Part shown: positions 7,841-28,368 of the stretch, piece by piece
How positions within the stretch are numbered: the stretch's first letter is position 1
How the letters are laid out: the number at the start of each line of letters is the position of its first letter
Assembly (NCBI RefSeq): GCF_017916455.1
Contig: NZ_JAFMSY010000002.1
Span: 310,001-374,000 of the forward strand
DNA from: Nocardioides xinjiangensis
Lineage (GTDB): Bacteria; Actinomycetota; Actinomycetes; Propionibacteriales; Nocardioidaceae
Direction of reading: 5' to 3'
Length of the DNA: 64,000 bases
The notes under the pieces: model-generated
What the model saw: only the letters and a program-made list of their open reading frames with translations
Databases searched by the model: none
Told to the model about the DNA's origin: nothing
Position numbers and translations under genes: made by a program

Positions 7841-7913
7841 GCGGACGTAGCTCAGTTGGTAGAGCGCAACCTTGCCAAGGTTGAGGTCGCGAGTTCGAGC
7901 CTCGTCGTCCGCT
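7841..7913 (+). tRNA. tRNA-Gly (GCC)
   Basis: Complete cloverleaf: acceptor GCGGACG pairs with CGTCCGC, D-arm around AGCTCAGTTGGTAGAGC, anticodon stem CAACC/GGTTG with loop TTGCCAA (anticodon GCC), and T-arm with GTTCGAGCC. Discriminator is T. No CCA is encoded. Confidence 0.97.
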
Positions 7914-7946
7914 CGGAGAGGTCTCCCCCGACACGTGGGCCTCCAC

Positions 7947-8017
7947 GGTGGGTTGGCCGAGAGGCGAGGCAACGGACTGCAAATCCGTCTACACGGGTTC
8001 AAATCCCGTACCCACCT
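7947..8017 (+). tRNA. tRNA-Cys (GCA)
   Basis: Acceptor GGTGGGT pairs with ACCCACC; anticodon stem ACGGA/TCCGT holds loop CTGCAAA with anticodon GCA; T-loop GTTCAAATC is present. CCA is not encoded. It lies 33 bases after tRNA-Gly. Confidence 0.97.
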
Positions 8018-8036
8018 CGCAGGAACAACTCAACAC

Positions 8037-8111
8037 GGGCGATTGGCGCAGCGGTAGCGCGCTTCCTTGACACGGAAGAGGTCACTGGTTCAAACCCAGT
8101 ATCGCCCACCA
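8037..8111 (+). tRNA. tRNA-Val (GAC)
   Basis: Acceptor GGGCGAT pairs with ATCGCCC; anticodon stem CTTCC/GGAAG with loop TTGACAC gives anticodon GAC. This is the only one of the three tRNAs with an encoded CCA end (8109-8111). Confidence 0.97.
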
Positions 8112-17694: not shown

Positions 17695-18882
17695 ATGCGC
17701 ATCGACGTCCTCAGCAAGGAGTACCCCCCGGAGATCTACGGCGGGGCCGGCGTGCACGTGGCCGAGCTGGTCCGCGCGCTGCGCGTCCTGCGCGACGTGG
17801 ACGCCCGCGTGCGCTGCTTCGGGGCCCCGCGCTCCGAGCCCGGCACCACGGCGTACGCCGAGCCGGAGTCGCTGGCCGGGGCCAACCCGGCCATCCGCAC
17901 GCTCGGCGTGGACCTGGCGATGGTCGACGACTGCGCCGGCGCCGACGTGGTGCACTCGCACACCTGGTACGCCAACACGGCCGGCCACCTCGCCGGGCTG
18001 ATGCACGGCGTCCCGCACGTCGTCAGCGCCCACTCGCTGGAGCCGATGCGGCCGTGGAAGGCCGAGCAGCTCGGCGGCGGCTACGCGGTGTCGAGCTGGG
18101 CGGAGCGCACGGCGTACGAGGGCGCCGCCGGGATCATCGCGGTCAGCGCCGCGATGCGCGACGACGTGCTGCGCAGCTATCCGTCCGTCGACCCCGCGAG
18201 GGTGCACGTCGTGCACAACGGCATCGACACCGCGGAGTGGTCGCCGGTGGAGGACCCCGACCGGCTGCGCGAGCTCGGCGTGGACCCCGACCGGCCGAGC
18301 GTGGTCTTCGTCGGCCGGATCACCCGCCAGAAGGGGCTGCCGCTCTTCCTCCGTGCCGCGGCCGCCCTGCCGCCGGAGGTCCAGCTGGTGCTGTGCGCGG
18401 GCGCACCCGACACCCCCGAGATCGAGGCCGAGGTGCGCGGCCTCGTCGACGACCTCGCCACCACGCGTTCCGGCGTCGTCTGGATCCCCGAGATGCTTCC
18501 CCGGGCCGACGTGATGACGCTGCTGACCGGCGCGACCGTCTTCGCCTGCCCGTCGATCTACGAGCCGCTGGGCATCGTGAACCTCGAGGCGATGGCCTGC
18601 GAGACCGCGGTGGTCGCCACCGCGACCGGTGGCATCCCCGAGGTCGTCGTCCACGGTGAGACCGGCTGGCTGGTCCCGATCGAGCAGGCCTCCGACGGCA
18701 CCGGCACCCCCCTCGACCCCGACCGCTACGTCGCCGACCTCGCCGGCGCGCTGATCGAGGCCGTCAGCGACCCCGACCGGGCGCGGGCCTTCGGCGCGGC
18801 GGGCCGCCGCCGGGCCGAGGAGTCCTTCAGCTGGGGCTCGATCGCCGCGCGGACCCTGGACCTGTACCGCTCGCTGGCGTAG
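17695..18882 (+). CDS. glgA: GT4 glycogen synthase / maltose-1-phosphate synthase (GlgA/GlgM type)
   Basis: A 395-residue GT-B glycosyltransferase beginning MRIDVLSKEYPPEIYGGAGVH. The N-terminal domain carries the ADP-glucose glycine loop, and the C-terminal domain has VVFVGRITRQKGL and the E-x7-E region FACPSIYEPLGIVNLEAMAC. It resembles the actinobacterial enzyme next to glgC which in Mycobacterium was shown to make maltose-1-phosphate (GlgM) rather than extend glycogen directly; which activity applies here cannot be read from sequence. Leaderless start. Confidence 0.9.
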   Translation: MRIDVLSKEYPPEIYGGAGVHVAELVRALRVLRDVDARVRCFGAPRSEPGTTAYAEPESLAGANPAIRTLGVDLAMVDDCAGADVVHSHTWYANTAGHLAGLMHGVPHVVSAHSLEPMRPWKAEQLGGGYAVSSWAERTAYEGAAGIIAVSAAMRDDVLRSYPSVDPARVHVVHNGIDTAEWSPVEDPDRLRELGVDPDRPSVVFVGRITRQKGLPLFLRAAAALPPEVQLVLCAGAPDTPEIEAEVRGLVDDLATTRSGVVWIPEMLPRADVMTLLTGATVFACPSIYEPLGIVNLEAMACETAVVATATGGIPEVVVHGETGWLVPIEQASDGTGTPLDPDRYVADLAGALIEAVSDPDRARAFGAAGRRRAEESFSWGSIAARTLDLYRSLA

Positions 18883-18944
18883 GGCGGACGGGGCCGGGGC
18901 CCGCGCCGGAGCGCCGGCCCGCTTTCTCGCGCGGCCCGGGTCCA

Positions 18945-19136
18945 GCGTCATACGAACCAGCACCTATACGTCCGCCTTCGTATGACGCACCGGGCGCCGC
19001 CCGCGTGGCCCGAGCCCAGCGTCATACGAACCAGCACCTATACGTCCGCCTTCGTATGACGCACCGGGCGCCGCCCGCGCCGCCCGGCCCCAGCGTCATA
19101 CGAACCAGCACCTATACGTCCGCCTTCGTATGACGC
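18945..19136. repeat. Nested-palindrome array A, three copies at a 74-bp period
   Basis: Copies at 18945-18988, 19019-19062 and 19093-19136 are identical over 44 bases. Each has outer arms GCGTCATACGAA and TTCGTATGACGC (perfect inverted repeat of 12), five-base spacers CCAGC and CCGCC, and an inner ten-base near-palindrome ACCTATACGT. Linkers of 30 bases are GC-rich and similar to each other, beginning ACCGGGCGCCGCCC. The array fills most of the gap between convergent glgA and glyA (18883-19188), which contains no gene. The arms are AT-rich against a very GC-rich background. Six more copies occur near 28 kb. Confidence 0.95.
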
Positions 19137-19188
19137 ACCGGGCGCCGCCCGAGCCGCCCGCGCCGCACGAGTGTCGCCGGCCCCGCGG

Positions 19189-20625
19189 TCAGCCCAGGAC
19201 GAGGCCCGGGTAGAGCGGGTGCTTGTCGAGCAGCTCCGCGGACCGCTTGACGACGCGGTCGGCGACGCCGTCGGCGAGGACGTACGACGCCTTGCTGGGG
19301 CCGCCGGCCTTGGTGGTGCCGGCCTCGGTGTTGCTGAGCACGTCGACGATGAGCTCGGCGACGGTGTCGAACTCGTCGTGGCCGAACCCGCGGGTGGTCA
19401 GGGCCGGGGTGCCGAGGCGGACGCCGGAGGTGTACCAGGCGCCGTTGGGGTCGGCCGGGACCGAGTTGCGGTTGGTGACAACACCGGCCTCGAGCAGTGC
19501 CGACTCCGCCTGGCGGCCGGTGAGGCCGAACGAGGAGACGTCGAGCAGCACGATGTGGTTGTCGGTGCCGCCCGTGACCAGCGTGGCGCCGCGGGTCAGG
19601 AAGCCCTCCGCGAGCGAGTGGGCGTTGTCGGCGATGCGCTGCGCGTAGTCCTGGAACTCGGTGGTGCGCGCCTCCGCGAAGGCGACGGCCTTGGCGGCCA
19701 TCACGTGCGACAGCGGGCCGCCGAGCACCATGGGGCAGCCCCGGTCGACGTCGGCGGCGAACTCCTCCTGGGCCAGCACCATGCCGCCGCGCGGACCGCG
19801 GAGGGACTTGTGCGTGGTGGTGGTGGTGATGTGGGCGTGGGGCACCGGGTCCTCGTCGCCGGTGAAGACCTTGCCCGCCACCAGGCCGGCGAAGTGCGCC
19901 ATGTCGACCATCAGCACGGCGCCCACCTCGTCGGCGATCTCGCGCATCTTCGCGAAGTTCACCCGCCGGGGGTAGGCGGAGTAGCCGGCGACCAGCACGA
20001 GCGGCTTGAACTCGCGCGCCTTGGCGGCCACCGCGTCGTAGTCGAGCAGGCCGGTCTCCGGGTCGGTGCCGTACTGCTGCTGGTGGAACATCTTCCCGCT
20101 GATGTTGGGACGGAAGCCGTGGGTGAGGTGCCCGCCGGCGTCGAGCGACATCCCGAGCAGCCGCTGGTTGCCGAACTCGTGGCGCAGGGTCTCCCAGTCG
20201 GCCTCGGTGAGCTCGTTGACGTTCTTGGCCTGCAGCTTCTCCAGGTAGGGCGTCTCGACCCGGTTGGCCAGGATCGACCAGAAGGCGACGAGGTTGGCGT
20301 CGATGCCCGAGTGCGGCTGCACGTAAGCGTACGGCGCTCCGAACAGCTCGCGCGCGTGCTCGGCCGCCAGCGACTCGACGGTGTCGACGTTCTGGCAGCC
20401 GGCGTAGAAGCGGTGACCGACGGTGCCCTCGGCGTACTTGTCGCTTAACCAGGTGCCCATCGTCATCAGGACCGCCGGCGAGGCGTAGTTCTCCGAGGCG
20501 ATCAGCTTGAGCGACGCGCGCTGGTCGGCGAGCTCCTGCCGGGTCGCCTCGGCGATGCGGGGCTCGACCGAGGCGATGACCTCGAGGGCCTGCGAGTACG
20601 CACTGCTGATCAGGGAGTCCGTCAT
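19189..20625 (-). CDS. glyA: Serine hydroxymethyltransferase, long actinobacterial form
   Basis: GlyA converts serine plus tetrahydrofolate to glycine plus methylene-THF using PLP. The 478-residue product has [23 protein letters not shown] and the PLP lysine in [15 protein letters not shown] (Lys273). It is about 60 residues longer than the E. coli enzyme, mostly from an insertion around residues 113-170 ([18 protein letters not shown] region), a feature of one actinobacterial subgroup. TAGGCT seven bases before the ATG at 20625 supports this start over the longer upstream reading. Confidence 0.96.
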
Positions 20626-27926: not shown

Positions 27927-28368
27927 GCGTCATACGAACGAGCACCGATAGGTCCGCCTTCGTATGACGCACGCGGCGCCGCCCGACCCGCGCCCGACCC
28001 GCCACGCGCGCCAGCCCCAGCGTCATACGAACCGGCACCCATACGTCTGCCTTCGTATGACGTACCGGACAGCGTCATACGAACCAGCACCTATAGCTCC
28101 GCCTTCGTATGACGCACGCGGCGCCGCCCGCCCCGCGCCCGACCTGCCCGGCCCCAGCGTCATACGAACCAGCACCTATAGGTCCGCCTTCGTATGACGC
28201 ACTGGGCGCCGCACGCCCCGCGCCCGACCCGCCACGCGCGCCGAACCCCAGCGTCATACGAACCGGCACCCATACGTCTGCCTTCGTATGACGCACCGGG
28301 CGCCGCCCGACCCACCCGGCGCCAGCGTCATACGAACCAGCACCTATAGGTCCGCCTTCGTATGACGC
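27927..28368. repeat. Nested-palindrome array B, six copies
   Basis: Copies at 27927-27970, 28020-28063, 28072-28115, 28157-28200, 28251-28294 and 28325-28368. All keep the 12-base arms GCGTCATACGAA and TTCGTATGACGC; the only arm change is C to T in the second copy. The inner ten bases vary: ACCGATAGGT, ACCCATACGT (copies 2 and 5), ACCTATAGCT and ACCTATAGGT (copies 4 and 6, a perfect palindrome). Copies 2 and 5 also share spacers CCGGC/CTGCC, showing two sequence classes. Linkers are 8 to 56 bases. All copies have the same orientation as array A. The 627-base gap 27798-28424 between recX and the phosphoribosyltransferase holds no gene. Confidence 0.95.

Follow-up and report, generated by a model that had tools for sequence, protein, structure and literature searches.

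What three identical palindromes might do between the ends of two convergent genes is the question raised by positions 18945-19136 of the window, i.e. the whole stretch of 64,000 nucleotides from Nocardioides xinjiangensis analysed in this study. An earlier note had described them as an array (array A) of exact 74-bp period and had proposed that it could act as a two-sided terminator, a block to read-through or a nucleoid anchor. The features concerned are the following:

17695..18882, + strand: glgA, convergent neighbour, outside the palindrome system
18945..18988, no strand: palindrome copy A1, 44 bp
18989..19018, no strand: linker A1-A2, 30 bp
19019..19062, no strand: palindrome copy A2, 44 bp, identical to A1, 74 bp further
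19063..19092, no strand: linker A2-A3, 30 bp
19093..19136, no strand: palindrome copy A3, 44 bp, identical to A1, again 74 bp further
19189..20625, - strand: glyA, convergent neighbour, outside the palindrome system

The names of neighbouring genes and domains (glgA, glyA, pst/pit, fumarase, etc.) are partly putative assignments made from their sequences. The reported period was borne out, as the three 44-nt copies are identical and start 74 and 74 nt apart, each with fully complementary arms (GCGTCATACGAA and TTCGTATGACGC) separated by 20 nt. The 30-nt linkers proved alike, starting with ACCGGGCGCCGCCC, in which GGGCG-C-CGCCC forms the small palindrome previously noticed. The array does lie between convergent gene ends, since glgA ends at 18882 on the + strand and glyA at 19189 on the - strand.

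A second array, whose linkers resemble those of array A, adjoins a recX-like gene and comprises six copies (27927-28368):

27927..27970, no strand: array B copy B1
28020..28063, no strand: copy B2, 93 bp after B1
28072..28115, no strand: copy B3, 52 bp after B2
28157..28200, no strand: copy B4, 85 bp after B3
28251..28294, no strand: copy B5, 94 bp after B4
28325..28368, no strand: copy B6, 74 bp after B5

With at most one mismatch, the half-site GTCATACGAA has 18 matches in the window, where 0.63 would be expected (none of 100 shuffles reached 18), and all of them fall within array A or array B. An Rfam scan of the window returned only three tRNAs above the gathering threshold and no RNA family for the palindromes; three consecutive tRNA genes lie at 7841-8108.

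Searching the 3.7-Mb genome with the palindromic pattern (up to three mismatches) retrieved 120 copies, and none with the reversed control pattern. The 28 stretches fetched, window included, contain 112 copies, grouped into 30 clusters with one to eight members; the genome contains at least 30 clusters, at least two further single places (C1:1220929 and C1:1643871) lying outside the fetched stretches. The element is a palindrome of 42-44 bp with the outer half-site CGTCAT(A/G)CG(A/G)A, occurring between genes either singly or in direct tandem arrays that are homogeneous internally. According to our own gene calls, all 30 clusters are intergenic, 16 of them in convergent, 13 in tandem and one in divergent gaps, whereas the 87 comparison gaps of at least 60 bp in the same stretches divide into 9, 46 and 32, respectively. 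This excess in convergent gaps (16/30 vs 9/87, Fisher p 4e-6) is accompanied by a divergent deficit (p 3e-4), and arrays in tandem gaps are mostly closer to the end of the upstream gene, giving a general placement towards the 3' ends of genes. A DNA uptake sequence was considered and rejected because half-sites almost never occur alone, 181 of 187 in the window and the 27 other fetched stretches being inside palindromes.

The nearest named relatives of the GlgA protein are from Nocardioides species (90 %). Array A was missing, up to a distance of 1.5 kb from the glyA match, in all 29 relatives' loci fetched (24 of the same genus), and likewise at the glgA loci of all 20 named relatives scanned, one of which carries a pair of unrelated sites elsewhere in its 17 kb. 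Its absence around glyA in all 29 relatives makes a dedicated glgA/glyA terminator unlikely, and array A is without the U tract of a terminator; a device dedicated to these two genes is not supported. Array A is one member of a genome-wide dispersed family with a nuclease-like partner gene, and no local device.

The spacing of the palindromes is helically phased. Start-to-start spacings cluster into five classes (52-53, 62-67, 73-75, 84-86 and 90-94 bp), and the 74 bp of array A equal seven helical turns, placing its copies on the same DNA face as the note had supposed; phasing at 10.5 bp holds across all arrays. After dereplication, i.e. equal spacings within one array being counted once, the 41 spacings of 50-100 bp in the N. 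xinjiangensis genome gave R = 0.683 at 10.5 bp, and 65 dereplicated spacings, from 83 listed pairs in 12 other genomes, gave R = 0.875 with a best period of 10.3 bp. Under a uniform null, p was about 1e-5 in each set, which is the simulation floor; spacings of 69-71, 56 and 66 bp lie off the 10.5-bp fit. Such phasing points to a protein acting on double-stranded DNA, whose sites would be expected to show it, RNA hairpins offering no reason for a 10.5-bp spacing. By pattern search, tandem palindrome pairs were detected in 38 of 196 Nocardioides genomes. Two of these genomes harbour two palindrome types, each with its own in-phase spacing (53 vs 63-64 bp): in G162, the CGTCATGG-type pairs are 53 bp apart (4/4 listed) and those of the other type 63-64 bp (6/6 listed), and in G109 the corresponding values are 53 bp (4/4) and 64 bp (4/4), with one mixed pair at 66 bp.

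Many palindrome pairs in other genomes are approximately 1.0-1.1 kb apart, and the 11 such pairs that we picked from coordinates alone (L133-L141, L143, L145) all enclose members of one protein family; wider pairs, 1.2 and 2.3 kb apart (L142, LacI-type; L144), enclose other genes. The member in the genome under study is located as follows:

G000:C1:1317989-1318921 (L034:2649-3617), minus strand, outside the window: own-genome partner gene, between arrays of four and two copies

The family is discrete, its members matching the N. xinjiangensis protein at E <1e-89 and no other of the 9713 open frames doing so at <1e-5. The partner combines an AbiEi-like, putatively DNA-binding N-terminus with a DUF559/Vsr-like C-terminus that is predicted to be a nuclease of the PD-(D/E)XK kind. 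The similarity of its N-terminal 190 residues to AbiEi is weak (best PADLOC E 3.7e-9, for the N. xinjiangensis protein), and this same member scored 21.4 bits for PF04480, against a cut-off of 20.6, two of the three other family proteins scanned falling below it. No Y1_Tnp domain appeared in the Pfam scan of these four proteins at E up to 1, DUF559 and weak AbiEi matches being returned instead. The putative active-site residues D247, E258, D260 and H264 (D..ExD..H pattern) are kept in 95, 94, 94 and 93 of 95 members, respectively, and solved structures gave only weak matches, the best being PvuRts1I (E 0.04) over the nuclease part.

The partner gene is bracketed by the palindrome. Among 95 family loci (92 from Nocardioides and 3 from other genera; some picked via the palindrome, most via protein search), the palindrome is present on both sides of the gene at 81, upstream only at six and downstream only at three, one of these one-sided loci being cut off by a contig end. 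The remaining five (L252, L260, L263, L267 and L268) carry, on one or both sides, a sister palindrome of the same length ending in ACGTGTGACG or ACGTCCGACG. The reversed pattern yielded three matches at family loci vs 226 for the true pattern, and the palindrome was found at none of 27 other DUF559 loci. From the upstream copy to the matched start of the protein, the median distance is 136 bp. Unlike terminal inverted repeats, the flanking copies are direct at 44, inverted at 25 and tied at 6 of 75 loci.

Gene and palindrome also occur together. The gene was identified in 88 of the 196 Nocardioides genomes (E up to 1e-57), and at least one palindrome in all 88 of these vs 63 of the 108 without it (Fisher 2e-14, ancestry ignored); for at least three palindromes, the figures are 78/88 and 29/108 (3.5e-19, ancestry again ignored). 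The median palindrome count is 12 with the gene and 1 without, and gene-bearing genomes carry between 1 and 104 copies. Counting exact palindromes of the genome, those of G190 (2/2) and G191 (1/1) are sited solely at the gene. At least five palindromes are held by 19 of the 108 gene-less genomes, including 76 in G127; these could be orphans, or the gene could be dispensable.

Protein and palindrome diverge together. Their identities are correlated across 87 loci (Mantel r 0.445, p up to 2e-4, reached by none of 5000 permutations, ancestry ignored), although a palindrome flanking a gene would diverge with it through linkage alone. In genomes with two such genes, each palindrome tracks that of the nearest protein elsewhere and not that of the paralogue in the same genome: likeness is 0.80 and 0.60 vs 0.37 in G162, 0.80 and 0.97 vs 0.23 in G137, and 0.60 and 0.87 vs 0.37 in G092, with the same trend, weaker, in G087, G077 and G149. 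For dispersed copies from 13 genomes, the flanks of the own gene ranked within the top 10 % of 81 for 162 of 172 copies, of which 93 come from the N. xinjiangensis genome (Wilcoxon over genomes p 1.2e-4). The match was weakest, and partial, in G109 and G096; in G019 and G083 the dispersed copies do not match the own gene, which is flanked by the sister palindrome, and for this reason G019 was left out of the scoring.

The system turns over between species. The partner gene stands in at least 25 unrelated neighbour contexts of household genes among the 95 loci; as far as sequence comparison goes, this variety and the absence of the array near the relatives' glyA show turnover and not its mechanism. 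A phage or plasmid origin was rejected: no relative was retrieved by a pattern scan of 2.9 million viral contigs or from plasmids, and one faecal scaffold labelled phage carries a relative at 49 % identity.

The two halves of the palindrome behave differently between and within genomes. Between species, the inner complementarity of halves is 0.641 vs 0.420 when shuffled (87 gene-flanking copies); within the N. xinjiangensis genome (one copy per cluster, n = 30) it is lower than for shuffled halves (0.619 vs 0.686), so that no hairpin is being preserved there. Selection on a hairpin would be expected to produce covariation in both comparisons, and we infer that half-sites of a symmetric dimer whose specificity changes between species would fit both results. 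Of 196 Nocardioides genomes, 151 contain the core CGTCAT-N30-ATGACG, for which the control gave one match; among 394 genomes of the class, the core rises above background only in the same family, three other genera included. Palindrome centres differ by species.

Homologues outside the partner family were recovered at E values of 1e-51 to 1e-113. Clear matching palindrome pairs surround six of 14 such outside genes (L278-L291), namely L282, L283, L284, L286, L287 and L291, those of L286 and L284 being less regular; none was seen in L278, L280, L285 or L290, and L292, beyond this set, has a matching pair as well. These loci (L282-L284, L286, L287, L291 and L292) are not from Nocardioidaceae, and their palindromes are unrelated to the Nocardioides one and similar in length and position. 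In both L282 and L283, for instance, CGTCCGAAGA...TCTTCGGACG is present on both sides of the gene.

We regard it as probable that array A consists of clustered tandem copies of a REP-like palindrome belonging to a two-part system, composed of a dispersed, phased palindrome and a bracketed AbiEi/DUF559 gene, with binding, cutting and mobilisation as its inferred activities. The association of gene and palindrome is observed; most likely, the DUF559 protein binds the phased palindromes and its nuclease activity spreads them. The partner, probably as a dimer, would recognise both half-sites on double-stranded DNA, dimers on neighbouring sites of one DNA face would contact each other, and nicking or cutting by the nuclease domain would allow palindromes and gene to spread via recombination or repair, arrays settling 3' of genes because insertions would be least harmful there. 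A bolder proposal, quite conceivable though we would sooner bet against it than on it, is that a Vsr-like DUF559 nuclease with an AbiEi-like DNA-binding domain copies its cognate palindrome between genes via at least two same-face sites, and would represent a new class of mobile unit, widespread in Actinobacteria, with lineage-specific enzyme-palindrome pairs and spacing and a sister DUF559 class using hairpins of 70-88 nt.

Helical phasing over five spacing classes, a strictly intergenic distribution of up to 120 copies and halves varying independently within the genome, as protein half-sites would, are in line with a domesticated partner whose palindromes are phased anchors organising or looping the chromosome, the nuclease fold serving for binding only. 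We nevertheless find this unlikely, as both the range from 1 to 104 copies among gene-bearing genomes and the lack of conservation in place would be odd for a needed architecture, and the active-site residues are kept in 93-95 of 95. A two-sided terminator or read-through block between glgA and glyA would agree with 16 of 30 arrays being convergent and one divergent, and with a stable RNA hairpin (z -3.4 to -5.5). Against it, no hairpin followed by a T-run, i.e. of the Rho-independent kind, was found in 18800-19250, the array is absent near glyA in the 29 relatives, RNA hairpins give no ground for the 10.5-bp spacing and the gene bracket stays unexplained. Improbable on these counts, the dedicated terminator was rejected for having no U tract, no conservation in place and, within the N. 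xinjiangensis genome (0.619 vs 0.686 shuffled), no complementarity of halves beyond chance; termination may be a by-product of the array.

Arrays that are homogeneous internally, and the many palindrome-bearing genomes without the gene, could also result from neutral tandem duplications or from MITEs of another transposase, the nuclease-like gene merely tolerating palindromes as neighbours. The bracket at 90 of 95 loci vs none of 27 control DUF559 loci, the co-divergence of palindrome and protein and the recurrence of this layout, with different sequences, beyond the family render this even more improbable. Scarcely credible, finally, is a solitary AbiEi-like regulator controlling its own expression, with dispersed copies forming its regulon: an AbiEi-like N-terminus and an upstream palindrome at that median distance of 136 bp would suit an operator, yet the dispersed arrays avoid promoters (1/30 divergent, those in tandem gaps mostly nearer the end of the upstream gene) and a regulon does not need the downstream copy.

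The two-part system preferred here resembles REP/RAYT, in which, according to the accessible text of PMC2817692, extragenic palindromes and a partner gene bracketed by the repeats diverge together. The likeness extends to dispersed, species-specific extragenic palindromes located after genes (120 copies, 30/30 clusters intergenic) and to a single bracketed partner (81/95 on both sides, 9 on one side) co-diverging with its repeat; at 42-44 bp, the palindromes are slightly longer than the 20-40 bp given for REPs (PMC3733652, accessible text). By analogy, the system would be REP/RAYT-like in its working; it is not a REP/RAYT member, since it has no Y1 transposase (HUH, IS200/IS605-kind; no match in the four proteins scanned), its unrelated, nuclease-type partner being DUF559/AbiEi-like, since there is no unpaired GTAG head, both ends being paired (CGTCAT/ATGACG), and since flanks are more often direct than inverted (44 direct, 25 inverted and 6 tied of 75), RAYT flanks being always inverted. 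The direct tandem arrays in helical phase are a further difference. The CGTC-tagged REPs of Di Nocera (2013) share a palindromic repeat with a terminal CGTC and a location mostly after genes; as described in the accessible part of that paper (PMC3733652), they have stems of 8-9 bp, loops of 4-5 nt, an unpaired CGTC tag and a short tail, and reportedly no enzyme dedicated to them; that part makes no use of the word Actinobacteria. Here, by contrast, both termini of the 42-44-bp palindrome carry a paired CGTC, and this stem, loop and tag anatomy is not seen. Caulobacter VsrA likewise has the DUF559 domain, of the PD-(D/E)XK superfamily; a role in mismatch repair, alongside a cytosine methylase, is proposed for it, and the accessible text describes no palindromes (PMC12907096). 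With AbiEi antitoxins of type IV toxin-antitoxin systems, the partner shares a weak similarity over its N-terminal 190 residues; it differs in being fused to a predicted nuclease domain, and the bracket adjoins household genes of unrelated kinds, in 25 contexts or more.

In the literature searched, which takes in few subscription papers and preprints, no earlier report of a palindrome/DUF559 pairing was encountered. DUF559 proteins are abundant, few have a known function, and a cognate DNA element provides a direct, testable substrate for them. Species-specific pairs form a natural library of protein-DNA specificities, for which genomes with two pairs are internal controls, and phased arrays in five spacing classes make cooperative binding testable by helical position. 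Moreover, the REP-like repeats of several groups are described as having no enzyme of their own (PMC3733652, accessible text), which suggests seeking nucleases besides tyrosine transposases.

Other DUF559/MTES_1575 genes of Nocardioides are flanked by species-specific hairpins, often of 70-88 nt, and of 25 such loci 15 share matching 12-mers between their two flanks vs 29 of 600 mismatched pairs. Genes of this kind with different hairpins include L051, L053, L055, L056, L057 and L059, all just after glgA, and L131 (G000:C2:502350). The 85-bp hairpins behind relatives' glgA, considered as the array A element, were rejected as such because they belong to other DUF559 genes. Lastly, in some species (L136, L134 and L168) the reading frame of the partner protein runs into the palindrome downstream of the gene, which supplies its last codons.
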